8,267 nt of DNA from an uncultured Desulfobacterales bacterium (lineage in GTDB: Bacteria > Desulfobacterota > Desulfobacteria > Desulfobacterales > JAFDCJ01). Position 1 is the first letter of the stretch. Every line of letters starts with the position of its first letter. The stretch is from NCBI GenBank assembly GCA_945787595.1, contig CALZJV010000510.1, forward strand, positions 1-8,267. The letters run 5' to 3'. Under the pieces are notes generated by a model. That model saw only the letters and a program-made list of their open reading frames with translations. It ran no database searches and was not told where the DNA came from. Of the stretch, positions 2,390 to 8,267 are shown one piece after another. Both the position numbers and the translations under genes were made by a program.

Positions 2390-2950
2390 AAATCTCAAAA
2401 CATTAACATAGCCAATTACATCCGACCCCTGGATGGGTTGATTATTAAATCTTGCAAACGCTATTAGGAAATGGACAATTATTTTCAGCCGTCATGATTA
2501 TCATAGGGAGCACTGGTGGTCCAGTCCGTTCAATTAAAGTATCAAAGATTTTCAAGGTTTTTACTAAAATGGGCGGACAGATTTAAGGTTATCTGTACAA
2601 ATATACAATAGAATCAGAATATTGGCAGGATTTGACTAAGGCACGAAATGTAAACTTTGCCCTTTATGTGGATTGGCCAGGGGAAATCTACAACTTCCAG
2701 GAATTTTAGATTTGGCCGGCTAACCTAAAGCATCGTGGTTCAATTTTTTGGTTGATTAAAAAAAGCAATCTACATACTGCAAAAAGAATAGACCAGGTTC
2801 GGATTTTTACAAAATTTTTGAGGTTAAAAAATGGTTGAATATGAACTCCAAACCGGATAATAAGTGTGAAAGAGGTGGTGATATCATTTAGCTAACTGAA
2901 ATAATTACTAATTCCATATACTGGCAGCTATATTTAACTAAGCATGAGAT
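2390..2950. other. AT-rich gap with no solid gene
   Basis: No convincing gene, RNA or terminator seen. Many short T- and A-runs and scattered stops in all frames. An ATG at 2569 opens a frame that stops after five codons (TAA 2584-2586) and then stays open to TAG 2707-2709. That second part contains a protein-like stretch (YWQDLTKARNVNFALYVDW), so it may be a decayed small gene. Confidence 0.4.
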
Positions 2951-2958
2951 CTCAAATT

Positions 2959-2971
2959 ACTACAATGTAGT
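2959..2971. promoter_or_regulatory. Palindromic operator candidate ACTAC-N3-GTAGT (copy A)
   Basis: ACTACAATGTAGT is a perfect odd palindrome. It lies 14 nt upstream of a TTGACA box. A second copy (TACTACATAGTAGTA, 6359-6373) lies at almost the same place before the MerB-like gene. With the predicted start point its centre falls near -56, a position more typical of an activator than a repressor. The regulator is not in the window. Confidence 0.6.
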
Positions 2972-2985
2972 GTTTTTGTAATTTC

Positions 2986-3014
2986 TTGACAATGATAACA
3001 ACTTCAAGTAAACA
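2986..3014 (+). promoter_or_regulatory. Putative sigma70-type promoter before the phosphodiesterase unit
   Basis: A perfect -35 TTGACA (2986-2991), a 17-nt spacer and a weak -10 TAAACA (3009-3014). The weak -10 fits a promoter that needs activation. The parallel promoter at 6388-6416 has the same -35, the same spacing and a similar -10 (TAACAA). Transcription from here would give a leader of more than 400 nt before the ATG at 3448. Confidence 0.5.
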
Positions 3015-3213
3015 AATAAAAAATCCTTGACCAAATGTTTCGTGTTGCCTGGTACCGGAACGTTGAACCTCAACTCTTTCTAACTTCTGGTCTCATTCTG
3101 AACCTCATTACAGGCGGAGTCTCATCTTGATCCGAAATTCATATTGCTGGTAGTTTTTCAATTTTTTATTTTCTTATTGTTATGAAATAGAACTAGTTTT
3201 TCTTAAAACTTAA

Positions 3214-3303
3214 CCTAAAAATCAGGCAAAGATTCAATGGAGATTCCCCTCAAACTATGCATACCTTGCTCCCGACAGGACGTGGCTGTTCTGGAAGGAG
3301 CCT
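3214..3303 (+). promoter_or_regulatory. Conserved leader element, copy A
   Basis: Shares a gap-free core with 6557-6640: ATGGAG, CCCCTCAA, then GCTCC(C/T)GACAGG, followed by GGAGC. GCTCC (3268-3272) can pair with GGAGC (3297-3301), and ACAG (3275-3278) with CTGT (3286-3289), giving an interrupted hairpin. It lies in the 5' leader of the broken phosphodiesterase, between the shared promoter type and the gene. It may be a structured RNA, a small coding sequence, or both. Confidence 0.55.
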
Positions 3304-3401
3304 ACCGAAAATCAAAAATTACAATAGATCTCACTCGAAAAAGTAAATTCTTATCATTATTATCATTTAAGCCTGAGAAGCCCTCAAAGAAAGGAGGGTG
3401 A
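3237..3401 (+). CDS. Possible small leader ORF, 54 aa, starting MEIPLKLC
   Basis: ATG at 3237, preceded by AGGCAAAG about 6 nt away, opens 54 codons ending in TGA 3399-3401. The product starts MEIPLKLCIPCSRQ, with a C-x2-C pair at residues 8 and 11, and becomes lysine- and serine-rich at the C-terminus (KPEKPSKKGG). The other leader (6578 onward) encodes M-E-C-P-L-K-L-C in the same alignment. The codons differ silently at K (AAA/AAG), L (CTA/TTG) and C (TGC/TGT), which suggests that the protein sequence matters. The second copy stops after 12 codons. No known family recognised. It could be a small regulatory or leader peptide, or the remains of a duplicated gene start. Confidence 0.35.
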   Translation: MEIPLKLCIPCSRQDVAVLEGAYRKSKITIDLTRKSKFLSLLSFKPEKPSKKGG

Positions 3402-3447
3402 AGATAAGAGGTGTGAATCAACCTAATGTCAAAAAAAGGGGGGAAAC

Positions 3448-4666
3448 ATGAAGAACAAGAAACTTTTTGAGTTGGCTTCTATGATCGGGGTGTTGGTCCT
3501 TGGCTTGGTGGTTATGACAGCCTTTGCGTTCGCTGGCGAGAGAACCCCGAAAGGAAATGCCTTTGGATGGCACGGGGATCGCGGCCATAGCATTCAGCTC
3601 GGTCCGCGTCCGTACTTCCTCGTCGAAGATATGGATGAGAGTAAGCTCAAGACCAAACTCCAGCAGTGCTCCGAGGGCCCATTCAAGAGGACCGACTTCT
3701 CGATCGGAGTGCGACGTGACTTTCACCGCGGACAGGGAGTTGGTGTGCCGCCACTCACAGTGCGATCTTCATACGACGACGGACGTTGTCGCCCGCGAAG
3801 ACCTGCGTTGGAAGTGCACCACCCCCCCAGAATTCTCCCCGGACGACGAGCTGCTTAACGCTGCTGATATCAGGTGCTGCACCAGCGATTTCACGCTTGA
3901 GGAGTTCAAGTCGCTTTGCGGCAAGATGGATGCGGCAAACCGCAACGCGACCACCATAGAGGAATACATGGATGCCACCGCGAACTGGCGCACCGACCTT
4001 TATGCAACCTGCGGCACTTTGCTCAGTCACGCAGAGAGCATCGAGCTCTTCAAGGACTTGGGTGCGAAGATGACCCCTGAGCTCAAGGCTCCAAGCGTGG
4101 AAATGCCATATGAAGGCGATTATACCCAAGAGGACTATGCCCAACAGATGATCGACGAATACAAAGCAGCCCGTGTTAATCCCAAAAAGGTGTTTGCGCA
4201 GTCCTTCAACCTCGATGATGTGCTCTACTGGATCGAAAACGAGCCGCGGTTCGGCAGGCAGGCCGTGTTTCTCGATGGTCGCTACAACGTTCCTGGTTTC
4301 GACCATACCGACCCAACCACATGGTCGCCTACCATGGAGGAACTAGTTTCCGAGGGCGTGAACATTATTGCACCGCCCATGTGGATGCTCATGGCGCTCG
4401 ACGGGAATAATAAAATTGTACCATCCACGTACGCTAAGGAAGCTAAGGCTGCTGGCCTCGACATCATCACATGGACACTTGAGCGCTCCGGCCTTTTGAA
4501 GAACGGTGGCGGCTTTTACTATCAGACAGTTACCGATGTGATCAACAACGACGGCGACGCGTATGTTGCGCTCGACGTGCTGGCGCAGGACGTGGGAATT
4601 CTAGGTATTTTCTCTGACTGGCCAGCCACGGTAACCTACTATGCTAACTGCATGCGCCTCAAATAA
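3448..4666 (+). pseudogene. Exported glycerophosphodiester phosphodiesterase, broken by internal deletion and frameshift
   Basis: Starts at ATG 3448 behind a strong AGGGGGG site (3437-3443). Residues 1-29 form a signal peptide (KNKK, hydrophobic core, cleavage after AFA), followed by '[15 protein letters not shown]' and 'TDFSIG'. GDPD enzymes continue here with the catalytic HRG...PEHT segment. Instead the sequence jumps, around 3706-3709, into the next frame at '[18 protein letters not shown]', which carries the ExD metal-binding pair and the later His. From there GDPD homology runs to the natural C-terminus ([17 protein letters not shown], stop 4664-4666). The missing part is about 27 codons. 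The frame change fits a deletion of about 80 nt, joined at CGATCGGAGTGCG. The 'HR' and following Glu are lost, so restoring the frame would still not give an active enzyme. Intact relatives hydrolyse glycerophosphodiesters in the periplasm or outside. Start, signal peptide and distal part are well preserved, so the lesion looks recent; an assembly error is the main alternative. Confidence 0.85.
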
Positions 4667-4812: not shown

Positions 4813-6099
4813 ATGACCGTCTGCTCACATCTCGGACGATTATGTTTATTCACGAATGTAAAACAACCACTAAGCAAACTTAATGGAGTTCCTCATCAAG
4901 ATAGTTTTTATGGTGACGCACGTGCCGATGCGCCTGAATTGGCTTATCGAGGCTCTTTTAGCGTCGGCGTGCGGACTCTGGAAGTTATTAATCCCAACCA
5001 AATTGATATTTTAAATTATAGCGAAGATAACACGGATCCCAGGTATGATCGTCCTTTGACGCTTGAGGTGTGGTACCCGGCGATCCGCCCTGGCAAAAAA
5101 CCTGAGGTTACAACCTATTCAGATGTATTAGGCAGTGGCCCTGGCAACCCAGATCGACCCTTGATACCATTTGAATTCGCCGGGCGCGCATTGCGGAATG
5201 CAAAACCCGACTTCGGAGGTTCTTATCCTTTGGTAATCGTCTCACACGGCTATCCAGGCTCACGAGTTTTGCTGACTTATTTGACAGAAAATTTAGCATC
5301 CAAAGGCTATGTAGTGGTCGCAATAGATCACACAGATTCCACTCATGCAGATGCCACTGGTTTTTCCAGTACCCTTCTCAACCGTGCAATTGATATTAAT
5401 TTCGTGCTTAATTACATGACTGAAAGCTTTTTAACAGCTGTTGTCGATGCTGAGCGAACTGGGGTCATAGGTTATTCGATGGGCGGCTATGGGGCACTCA
5501 TTGCCGCAGGGGCAGGGGTCAGTGAGTTCGGTTGGGTTTATTGGGGGGGTGTGCCCGGAAATTTCATGGAAATGTTTCGAGCAGGTAATACAGATTACCA
5601 GGACTTTTTAGATCCACGCATTAAGGCGATCGTACCGTTTGCTCCCTGGGGCGGTCAATATGGAACCTGGGATCTTGTAGGACTTGAAGGACTCAAGGTT
5701 CCTTCCTTTTTTATCGTAGGGAATCAGGATCGCACTGCCGACTACGATGGGGTAGATTTTCTGTTTAAAAATGTCGTAAATTCAGATCGCTATATTCTAA
5801 TCTATCAAAACGGCATTCATGAAGTGGCGGTCAATCCGCCGCCGCCGATCGCAGAAAACTACTTTCGCGAATACATACACTACCAGGAACCCGCCTGGGA
5901 TAACCGGCGGTGCAACAATATCAACCAGCATTTTATTACGGCTTTTTTGGGCGTACACCTGAAAGGAATAGAAGAATATAGAGCATATCTGGATTTAATC
6001 CCAATTTCTAATGATGCGGATCCCTTTACGCCTGAATATTGGAAAGGCTTCAAAGAATGGACCGCTGTAGGATTGGAACTGCACCACATGGAACCATAG
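4813..6099 (+). CDS. Alpha/beta hydrolase, dienelactone hydrolase / PAF-acetylhydrolase type, 428 aa
   Basis: The catalytic triad is visible: nucleophile Ser222 in 'GYSMGG', Asp306 in 'GNQDRTADYDG' and His336 in 'NGIHEVAV'. The oxyanion-loop region is 'PLVIVSHGYPGSR' (His145). The N-terminal part ('ARADAPELAYRGSFSVGVRT', 'LTLEVWYPAIRPG') is typical of the COG4188 predicted dienelactone hydrolases, which include PAF-acetylhydrolase-like esterases. No signal peptide or membrane segment is seen, so a cytoplasmic esterase is likely; the natural substrate is unknown. ATG 4813 is the first start after an in-frame TAG (4810-4812) and has no Shine-Dalgarno. No ATG, GTG or TTG follows in frame before the conserved part, so this start is forced. 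It is a single-gene unit between a hairpin and a strong terminator. Confidence 0.85.
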   Translation: MTVCSHLGRLCLFTNVKQPLSKLNGVPHQDSFYGDARADAPELAYRGSFSVGVRTLEVINPNQIDILNYSEDNTDPRYDRPLTLEVWYPAIRPGKKPEVTTYSDVLGSGPGNPDRPLIPFEFAGRALRNAKPDFGGSYPLVIVSHGYPGSRVLLTYLTENLASKGYVVVAIDHTDSTHADATGFSSTLLNRAIDINFVLNYMTESFLTAVVDAERTGVIGYSMGGYGALIAAGAGVSEFGWVYWGGVPGNFMEMFRAGNTDYQDFLDPRIKAIVPFAPWGGQYGTWDLVGLEGLKVPSFFIVGNQDRTADYDGVDFLFKNVVNSDRYILIYQNGIHEVAVNPPPPIAENYFREYIHYQEPAWDNRRCNNINQHFITAFLGVHLKGIEEYRAYLDLIPISNDADPFTPEYWKGFKEWTAVGLELHHMEP

Positions 6100-6640: not shown

Positions 6641-6703
6641 AATTCATCTCGCCACGCCGAAACTTTGAAAATACAATTCTTGCGAACCTATCCAACAAAC
6701 AAC

Positions 6704-6710
6704 AGGAGGT
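6704..6710 (+). promoter_or_regulatory. Strong Shine-Dalgarno AGGAGGT deciding the MerB-like start
   Basis: A full AGGAGGT 7 nt before ATG 6718. It fixes the start at 6718 rather than the in-frame GTG at 6709, which overlaps the site itself. Confidence 0.85.
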
Positions 6711-6717
6711 GGCAATT

Positions 6718-7416
6718 ATGAGTGAGACTAGCCAGTTGGACAGAACCTTTCAAATCATTATGAAGCACCTGATGGAAACCGGTCAAGCACCTCACTACAC
6801 AGAGATTGCGGTCGAATTGGATGTTCCGATAGAAGAGGGGCGTAAAGCCTTGCATGAGCTATTTTCACCCGGTTTTCCTGCCTGGTTGTTTCCTAATACT
6901 GACTACATCTGCTCGTTTCCGCCATTTAGCAGCCTTCCCACCCAACACCGTATCACTATCGATGGTCAACAAAAGTGGTTCGGGCAATGAGGGTTCGAAT
7001 CGCTGGCGGTCAGCTGGCTTTTCCTGGGAAAAACAGTGCAAATTGATACTCTCTGTCTGGATTGTGGTTCTCCGATCAGAGTCGAAATGAAGGATGGAGC
7101 AATCCTGAACGCTGAACCGGAAGGTATCATGGGATATACATCTGTACCTTTTAAGGATTGGTTCAACGATCTGCCCTATGCCTGAAGTACCATGAACCTC
7201 TTCCGGTCGGAAGAACATGTTCGCAACTGGAGCGGATATAAGACCGATACTGATGAAGGGATCAATAAGCTTTCTGATGTACTTGGCCTTTTTTCCATAA
7301 ATTTTTTTTCCAAACGGTTGGATCCTGATTACGCTACCCGGATGCAGGATTATCTGATGGAATTAATCGAAATCCTAAAAGGGATGGGCTCTTTTTGGCA
7401 ACCGCCTGAGCAATGA
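6718..7416 (+). CDS. MerB-like (alkylmercury lyase superfamily) selenoprotein with two selenocysteines (Sec91, Sec156), 232 aa
   Basis: One continuous frame from ATG 6718 to TGA 7414-7416, reading TGA at codons 91 (6988-6990) and 156 (7183-7185) as selenocysteine. Residues about 7-50 form a helical, HTH-like N-terminal domain (HYTEIAVELDVPIEEGRKAL), as in MerB. The C-terminal part follows MerB: 'RITIDGQQKWFGQ-U-GFE' aligns with the segment holding MerB Cys96 and Asp99, 'CLDCGSPIRVE' (Cys113, Cys116) with the Cys117 region, and 'PYA-U-STMNLFRSEEHV' with the Cys159 segment. Spacing between the two U is 65, against 63 in MerB. Asp99 is replaced by Glu94. MerB cleaves carbon-mercury bonds by paired cysteine thiolates plus Asp; selenolates would bind soft metals or metalloids even more strongly. 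The actual substrate is unknown. Each TGA is followed by a SECIS-like hairpin, and translation outside these codons is uninterrupted. A pseudogene with two nonsense mutations is the alternative, but both would have to hit exactly the catalytic positions. Confidence 0.85.
6988..7014 (+). promoter_or_regulatory. Sec codon 91 and bSECIS-like hairpin 1
   Basis: TGA 6988-6990, 11 nt, then GCTG (7002-7005), loop GCGGT, CAGC (7011-7014). The 11-nt spacing equals that in Escherichia coli fdhF, and the loop is G-rich as SelB prefers. The stem is short (4 bp); a weak GAA/TTC lower pairing (6997-6999 with distal TTC) could extend it. Confidence 0.6.
7183..7214 (+). promoter_or_regulatory. Sec codon 156 and bSECIS-like hairpin 2
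   Basis: TGA 7183-7185, 13 nt, then TCTTCC (7199-7204), loop GGTC, GGAAGA (7209-7214): a perfect 6-bp stem. The GGUC loop is the same tetranucleotide found in the apical loop of the E. coli fdhF element, and the loop starts 20 nt after the UGA. Confidence 0.7.
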
Positions 7417-7456
7417 TTATCCATTATCTACTTAAGAATTACGGAAAGGGGGAAAA

Positions 7457-8267
7457 ATGAAGCATCGACAAGAATCAAATAACCGATCATTAGCTACACG
7501 CACGAATACTTGGGCCGTTTGGTTCGCGGGCGCTTTAGTTTTGGCCGTTATACTGGCGGTGGCGACGCCGCTTCCAGCAAGTGCAGGTGGTCAACTGGCG
7601 CTGGAGACGCTCTCGAATCGTCCCGACAAGCTCAGCGGCAGCGATGCGCTGGTGCACGTTAACGCTCCACCGGGTGTGGCGCTTGATGAGGTGACAGTGA
7701 GACTCAACGGTGTCGATGTCACCGGCCTGTTCGCCGCCGACGGCAGTGGTGGTCTCATAGGGCTGATCGAGGGGCTGGCGATAGGCAAGAACCTACTGCA
7801 GGCGAAAGCCAAGGGAGCTGGTACCGCCACGCTGCAACTGGTCAATCATCCACTCGAGGGACCGGTTTTCTCGGGGCCTCACGAGCAGCCTTTCTTCTGC
7901 CAGACGCAGTCATTCGAGATCTACCCAGGCGGTGAGACCCTGGGGCCGGCGCTGGACGAAAACTGCTCGGTGCCGAGGCGTGTAGACTATGTCTACCGTT
8001 CCACGGACGGACAGTTCAAGGATTTGGACTTAACTGATGATCTTCCGGATGATCTAGCCTCAACCACCACCACCGAAGGCGTTGAGGTACCGTACATCGT
8101 GCGATTGGAAACTGGGGTGATCAATCGCGCGATTTACCAGACGGCGATCCTGGACGATCCGGATGTGCCGGGGCCAGATTTGCAGGGCTCGGACGGGGCG
8201 TGGAACGGGAGGATAGTTTACAATTTTGGCGGAGGCTGTCGTGCGGGTTGGTACGCACAGGGGGAAT
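7457..8267 (+). CDS. DUF6351 family exported protein (5' part; runs off right edge)
   Basis: ATG 7457 with GAAAGGGGG just upstream, 40 nt after the MerB-like stop and with no terminator between, so probably the same operon. Residues 1 to about 43 form a signal peptide (basic start, hydrophobic WAVWFAGALVLAVILAVA, cleavage near ASA). The mature part shows the marks I associate with DUF6351, a tannase-like alpha/beta hydrolase family: 'LSNRPDKLSGSDALVHV' near the N-terminus, 'GPVFSGPHEQPFFCQT' (residues about 135-150), 'DYVYRSTDGQFK', 'ASTTTTEGVEVPYIVRLETG' and 'WNGRIVYNFGGGC' (about 248-261). The catalytic serine region would lie beyond the window. 270 codons are visible. GC content and codon use are much higher in G+C than in the AT-rich left half. 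Likely a periplasmic or outer-surface esterase; substrate unknown. Confidence 0.8.
   Translation, partial: MKHRQESNNRSLATRTNTWAVWFAGALVLAVILAVATPLPASAGGQLALETLSNRPDKLSGSDALVHVNAPPGVALDEVTVRLNGVDVTGLFAADGSGGLIGLIEGLAIGKNLLQAKAKGAGTATLQLVNHPLEGPVFSGPHEQPFFCQTQSFEIYPGGETLGPALDENCSVPRRVDYVYRSTDGQFKDLDLTDDLPDDLASTTTTEGVEVPYIVRLETGVINRAIYQTAILDDPDVPGPDLQGSDGAWNGRIVYNFGGGCRAGWYAQGE

Follow-up and report, generated by a model that had tools for sequence, protein, structure and literature searches.

A MerB-fold protein of an uncultured Desulfobacterales bacterium with predicted selenocysteine at both catalytic cysteine positions

We analyzed a stretch of 8,267 nucleotides (hereafter, the window) from an uncultured Desulfobacterales bacterium (contig CALZJV010000510.1 of assembly GCA_945787595.1), in which a gene at positions 6718-7416 of the forward strand encodes a protein resembling the organomercurial lyase MerB when two in-frame TGA codons are read through. 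We concluded that both codons almost certainly encode selenocysteine (Sec), at the positions of the two catalytic cysteines of MerB. The selenoprotein reading, already proposed in the initial annotation of this DNA, was supported by conserved TGA codons at Cys positions, by hairpins resembling the selenocysteine insertion sequence (SECIS) and by the Sec machinery of relatives. We further consider it fairly probable that the protein is an organomercurial or related organometal lyase, and we hold the combination of Sec at both sites with organometal lyase chemistry with similar, moderate confidence. Judged from the sequence, organomercurial lysis would be the likeliest function. The predicted occupation of both catalytic sites by Sec is new relative to SaoL, a known single-Sec selenoprotein.

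The features of the gene are as follows; counts out of 29 refer to the alignment of the window frame with 28 relatives described below.

6704-6709, forward strand: Shine-Dalgarno-like AGGAGG, 8 bases upstream of the ATG, read from the sequence directly.
6718-7416, forward strand: MerB-like coding sequence, 232 residues, with TGA codons 91 and 156 read as Sec and the terminal TGA included.
6988-6990, forward strand: TGA codon 91, predicted Sec at the MerB Cys96 position; TGA in 29/29 frames.
6997-6999, forward strand: Glu94, at the MerB Asp99 position; Glu in 29/29, Asp in locus L059.
6997-7023, forward strand: predicted bacterial SECIS hairpin 1, in which 7002-7007 pairs with 7013-7018 as the apical stem around the loop GGTCA at 7008-7012.
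7054-7065, forward strand: Cys113-Leu-Asp-Cys116 motif; both Cys in 29/29 and in the rows of SaoL and of a second subfamily.
7183-7185, forward strand: TGA codon 156, predicted Sec at the MerB Cys159 position (register to within one residue); TGA in 29/29.
7198-7215, forward strand: predicted bacterial SECIS hairpin 2, stem CTCTTCC / GGAAGAA, loop GGTC at 7205-7208.
7414-7416, forward strand: terminal TGA, taken as the true stop in view of the varied stop codons after the aligned region.

Codon reading of 6718-7416 (forward strand) showed internal stops at codons 91 and 156 only, both TGA, and thereby bore out the 232-codon MerB-like frame and the 65-codon spacing described initially. A first scan of species genomes yielded 10 loci, of which nine were full length and carried TGA at both sites; the partial one (L009) carried TGA at 156. 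When 395 genomes from the phylum of one relative (the phylum sample) were searched with a profile, 40 genomes matched at E 1e-10, and all 27 matches with E <1e-60 (23 genomes) had exactly two TGA codons and no other stop. In 146 genomes of one order (the order sample), which partly overlap the phylum sample, nine matches had two TGA codons, those of genomes G001 and G004 being already known, and two partial matches had one TGA each. We then aligned the window frame with 28 full-length relatives (43-87% identical to the window protein) that the first scan and the phylum sample had supplied; duplicates of the same locus, matches without a returned locus and aligned pieces shorter than about 200 residues were left out. 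In all 29 frames, TGA stands at codon 91, at codon 156 and in no other column, and none contained TAA or TAG. Such a coincidence at exactly two columns is far above chance, in agreement with the original argument that two chance nonsense mutations were unlikely. The same two TGA sites were present in nine further frames (L041, which is short by about 17 residues, L053-L059 and L074). The mean ratios of nonsynonymous to synonymous polymorphism (pN/pS) before, between and after the TGA codons were 0.29, 0.37 and 0.40, and purifying selection acts on all three segments of intact copies. The first stop beyond the aligned region was TAG in 12, TAA in nine and TGA in eight of the 29 frames; thus, TGA still seems to be a stop at the end of the gene. 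Some genomes possessed two or three copies of the dual-TGA gene (G093, G010, G087 and G005, the last with L074 as its second copy).

Each TGA was followed by a SECIS-like hairpin with its loop positioned as in Escherichia coli fdhF, the control element, in which GGTC lies at nucleotides 22-25. After TGA 156, GGTC was found at nucleotides 23-26 in 29/29 frames, closed by a stem of seven pairs. The stem of hairpin 2 was paired in 98.4% of cells, compared with 44-61% when the partner was slid, and compensatory changes were detected at two pairs; of 500 shuffles, 1 to 12 reached the observed values. In the window's copy, the outermost pair of this stem is a C-A mismatch. After TGA 91, G and U were invariant at nucleotides 22 and 23, and hairpin 1 was paired in 99.2% of cells, compared with 27-62% after sliding. 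Folding energy was below the mean of synonymous shuffles in 28/29 frames for hairpin 1 (mean z -1.23) and in 29/29 for hairpin 2 (mean z -2.59). Further, identity of codons for the same residue was 0.58 in codons 92-105 and 0.69 in codons 157-170, compared with 0.36-0.48 in seven other segments. RNAalifold applied to ten 96-base pieces missed hairpin 1, and most single-sequence folds contained it.

Homologues with Cys were found by a protein search that returned 150 proteins, the best 120 of which were listed. We examined 109 rows (P0003-P0110 and the window protein, P0001, which was assigned to the Sec class by hand); P0111-P0122 were excluded because their alignment reaches residue 90 only. 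Tryptophan occupied both 91 and 156 in 49 rows, which we take as TGA translated as Trp under code 4 by gene callers, and one row had Trp at 91 followed by the protein end. In 55 rows Cys was present at 91 and the protein ended about where 156 would be, the stop codon of these truncated rows being deduced from proteins, not from DNA. Three rows (P0015, P0039 and P0050) possessed Cys at both sites, with the second exactly at 156, and one row could not be aligned at 91. The expectation that homologues would carry Cys or Sec at these sites, not unrelated residues, was supported by the 109 rows, which showed TGA or Cys. On a FastTree tree of 107 rows, on which branch supports were uneven, residue 91 changed 16 times by parsimony. 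In seven Cys-type loci, of which L048 and L049 were near-identical, both aligned positions are Cys, and none of the seven shows GGTC at the SECIS spacing beyond the second one.

We looked for the Sec machinery in the genomes of 10 relatives and in the phylum sample. selB scored above the cut-off in 9/10 relatives' genomes, the remaining one (G003) having fragments, and tRNA-Sec scored above the cut-off in 9/10, the exception being G007; the best 150 tRNA-Sec candidates per genome were scored, which for G007 means 150 of 412. None of the 10 genomes lacked both. The initial annotation had called for a check of selB and selC in the host, and these counts give its outcome in the relatives. In the phylum sample, selB was present in 22/23 dual-TGA genomes and in 353/395 genomes overall, so it is useless as a discriminating marker.

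These results bear on two alternatives to Sec. A pseudogene with two nonsense mutations is extremely improbable: the six incomplete or frame-broken copies that occur in other genomes would suit it, but 29/29 frames share exactly two TGA codons and no other stop, and the pN/pS values are low in every segment (0.29, 0.37 and 0.40). On these two grounds the pseudogene was rejected. Code reassignment, with TGA read by the host as one of the standard amino acids, would explain why Trp stands at both sites in 49 of the 109 examined rows, as a code 4 caller would write it. However, TGA ends this gene in 8/29 frames and also ends the transposase-like open reading frame (ORF) at 283-960 of the window, and homologues read from DNA carry TGA or Cys codons, not TGG. 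We rejected reassignment on these grounds and give it hardly any probability.

The catalytic residues of MerB are Cys96, Asp99 and Cys159. The read-through protein passed the cut-off of the Pfam family PF03243 (MerB; 77.5 bits, cut-off 27) and was predicted to adopt the MerB fold. In profile alignments, codon 91 aligned with Cys96 in 5/5 matched Protein Data Bank (PDB) sequences, and codon 156 aligned with Cys159 of 3f2g and with the corresponding Cys of MerB2 (5c17), that is, in 2/5. The initial claim that the two TGA codons fall exactly on Cys96 and Cys159 thus stood for codon 91, whereas for codon 156 it was exact in two of the five sequences and off by one residue in three; from these alignments, the register of the second site is sure only to one residue. 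With Sec/Glu/Sec predicted in place of the triad Cys96/Asp99/Cys159, the protein falls outside MerB by its catalytic residues. Cys113 and Cys116 were invariant in the 29 frames and in an eight-row alignment that includes SaoL and the second subfamily.

Comparison with SaoL placed the two sites further. SaoL of the relative genome G008 (L064, minus strand; 165 bits) carries Cys opposite codon 91 and Sec opposite codon 156, where it reads SCU and then NVMNFF. Accordingly, the window protein has the Sec site of SaoL in common with it, plus a further predicted one at the Cys96 position. Matches to the SaoL profile other than the dual-TGA gene, in 30 host genomes, led to further MerB-like genes. 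Six of these loci (L065, with its frame from 1306, and L068-L072, in genomes G001, G057, G087, G151, G321 and G394) represent a divergent second subfamily of MerB-like genes, in which TGA occupies the two catalytic positions. This subfamily keeps Asp at the MerB Asp99 position and possesses GGTC at 23-26 after the second TGA in 6/6 loci; after the first TGA a hairpin was found and GGTC was not. The Pfam MerB cut-off was passed by both members checked (two of the six). Further matches to the SaoL profile included a second copy of the first subfamily (L074 in G005) and a Cys-type gene (in G051).

We next consider the genomes in which the dual-TGA gene resides. In the phylum sample, the mercury-methylation gene hgcA was above the cut-off in 17/23 dual-TGA genomes, compared with 97/372 others (p = 5e-6, one-sided Fisher test), in statistics that ignore phylogeny and include many incomplete assemblies. 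Two of the six dual-TGA genomes that missed the cut-off (G067 and G087) carry matching fragments slightly below the cut-off, and hgcA was present in 4/15 phylum-sample genomes with another or a broken MerB-like match. The enrichment exceeds that of the control dsrA, which, counted at E 1e-60, was present in 15/23 and 175/372 genomes (p = 0.07). Among the 161 genomes of at least 3.2 Mb (from 373 with sizes), hgcA was present in 16/21 dual-TGA genomes versus 57/140 others (p = 0.002), and among those of this size with dsrA, in 13/15 versus 30/76 (p = 0.0008). The contrast was weaker in the order sample (6/9 dual-TGA genomes versus 51/146 overall). Of the first-scan hosts, 5/7 possessed hgcA; G001 and G007 did not. 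Because G001, a Desulfosarcina assembly with the closest relative of the window protein (87% identical), gave no hgcA match, the link to hgcA need not hold for the window's host. We regard a specific link to hgcA as somewhat doubtful. merA was above the cut-off in 2/30 host genomes, a total of 30 that counts G009 with its partial gene.

Apart from ORFs that overlap the gene on either strand, each neighbor among the ORFs shown for 11 sequences (10 relatives plus the window) occurred in four of them at most, and none of these neighbors is shared by the window. A shared operon was therefore rejected, no neighbor being conserved across the 11 sequences. Among the selected ORFs scanned, relatives' neighbors included ComEC, an AMP-binding ligase, a tRNA-editing domain and an Adenosine_kin protein. 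SaoL sits in a neighborhood of sao transporter genes, and no sao family was found among the selected ORFs of the window and relatives that were scanned. A scan of viral contigs found no relative; among plasmids, the C91 protein P0060 matched a single distant member of the alkylmercury lyase family (27%).

On the basis of these results we propose the following mechanism. The gene would encode a MerB-fold selenoprotein outside any conserved operon, with both catalytic Cys of MerB replaced by Sec, and SelB with Sec-tRNA would read both UGA codons. In the established scheme for MerB, the organomercurial is held by the two cysteines and the carbon receives its proton from Asp99; we infer that Sec91, Sec156 and Glu94 act likewise. 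Sec156 and Sec91 would thus capture an organomercurial, for example methylmercury, Glu94 would be the acid that donates a proton to the departing carbon group, and Hg(II) would stay bound between the two selenolates. The strong affinity of mercury for selenium is well known chemically. Since selenolates carry no proton at neutral pH and hold mercury more tightly than thiolates do, one would expect improved capture but more difficult release of the product. Given the great strength of Se-Hg bonds, removal of the metal may depend on a cellular dithiol or on the conserved pair Cys113-x-x-Cys116. The likely setting would be internal handling of methylmercury in anaerobes, many of them with hgcA and seemingly without merA. 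Tentatively, and with rather low confidence, dual-Sec organomercury enzymes may be a partner of HgcAB in mercury-methylating anaerobes that cleaves or holds methylmercury without MerA.

Two other functions were weighed against organomercurial lysis. The protein might be a dual-Sec, MerB-fold sink or hand-off protein that traps Hg(II), methylmercury or another soft metal(loid) without cleaving a carbon-metal bond. Turnover looks difficult with Hg(II) gripped very tightly by two selenolates, Glu replaces Asp99, the CxxC pair is conserved in the 29 frames and merA is rare in the host genomes (2/30), all of which would fit a sink; however, the protein retains the MerB fold and, at 94, an acidic residue, and the frequent exchange of Cys and Sec at 91 on the tree fits a retained catalytic role. 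We consider such a sink unlikely. A dual-Sec lyase acting on another organometal(loid), namely an organoarsenic, organotin, organolead or organoselenium compound, would agree with the naming of the related SaoL as an organometallic lyase, not a mercury lyase, and with the finding that no mer gene was recognized among the scanned neighboring ORFs, but the enrichment of hgcA in host genomes points to mercury, and this substrate range is in our estimate quite improbable.

Several observations weigh against a dual-Sec organomercurial lyase. The putative lyase activity is deduced from the predicted fold and the positions of residues. Glu94 replaces Asp at the MerB Asp99 position in 29/29 frames, with Asp in L059, and in the other 3/5 PDB sequences a one-residue gap lies opposite 156, with Cys159 on 155 and Cys160 on 157. 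The protein missed the cut-offs of the NCBIfam MerB families NF033555 and NF009710 (29.7 versus 200 and 36.5 versus 193 bits) and that of the SaoL family NF040728 (44.8 versus 140 bits). Regarding Sec insertion, hairpin 1 showed no compensatory change in the 29 frames; all 500 shuffles reached its observed values, so the shuffle control is uninformative for it. An Rfam search of 6680-7460 gave no match, and the dual-TGA genome G019 gave no selB match at E 1e-60. No conserved neighborhood was detected among the ORFs shown for the window and 10 relatives, and no mercury or selenium gene was recognized adjacent to the gene among the selected neighboring ORFs scanned. Further, six copies were incomplete or frame-broken, with no contig end visible as the cause: L044 and L046 are split between frames, L045 matches residues 1-82 only, L060 starts at residue 92, L009 starts at about residue 118-124 and L061 has an internal deletion. 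Decay of the locus in relatives had been named initially as evidence against the proposal; incomplete or broken copies, from decay or assembly error, do exist, whereas the intact copies are under purifying selection.

The remainder of the window holds genes of other kinds. Downstream, 7457-8267 encodes a DUF6351, tannase-like protein (250 bits), and 4813-6099 encodes a PETase/alpha-beta hydrolase-like protein; these two neighbors look like hydrolases, not metal genes. A GDPD-like gene at 3448-4666 apparently extends over two overlapping frames, with a signal-peptide-like start at 3448-3858 and the GDPD match at 3524-4666, which suggests a frameshift or sequencing error. An IS200/Y1 transposase-like ORF at 283-960 ends in TGA, and about 1 kb at 2390-3417 is without a listed ORF of at least 60 residues.

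If our interpretation is correct, surveys of merB that use standard gene calls can miss or truncate a dual-Sec class in anaerobes, including carriers of hgcA, and this missed class bears on the formation and removal of methylmercury in sediments. The dual-Sec site would occur in two divergent MerB-like subfamilies. Further, the presence of Cys/Cys, Sec/Sec and probably Cys/Sec forms in one family would provide a natural test of Sec over Cys.

Across the passages considered of the open-licence literature, including PMC13188914, PMC9312934 and PMC7435645, we found no enzyme with Se at both organomercury catalytic ligands, and the passages considered of PMC2398784, PMC5029168 and PMC12013277 do not mention MerB. 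In the part considered of a 2026 inventory, SaoL is the sole MerB entry, with one Sec and the motif CU (PMC13188914). The same part lists a two-Sec (UxxU) metal-binding protein called a putative mercuric reductase (PMC13188914), which resembles the window protein in its relation to mercury and in its two Sec residues but is not a MerB. A 2020 list of predicted selenoproteins includes an "Organic mercuric lyase MerB2" (PMC7435645), which is a MerB-type selenoprotein like the window protein; the passage that lists it gives neither the number nor the place of Sec.

Compared with MerB (PDB 3f0o, 3f2f and 3f2g), which possesses Cys at both sites and Asp99, the window protein has predicted Sec at both sites and Glu. 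It also has the extra Cys of the CxxC motif, its C-terminal helix (205-221) lies mostly outside the aligned range, and no mer operon was seen around its gene. MerB2 (PDB 5c17) is 20% identical to the window protein and has Cys where the latter has Sec, with Ser at the Asp99 position. SaoL (NF040728) and the window protein are alike in PF03243, in Sec at the 156 position and in the CxxC pair. In contrast to SaoL, in which Cys occupies the 91 position and the single Sec follows Cys (CU), the window protein is predicted to possess Sec at both positions, with Ala155 before Sec156.
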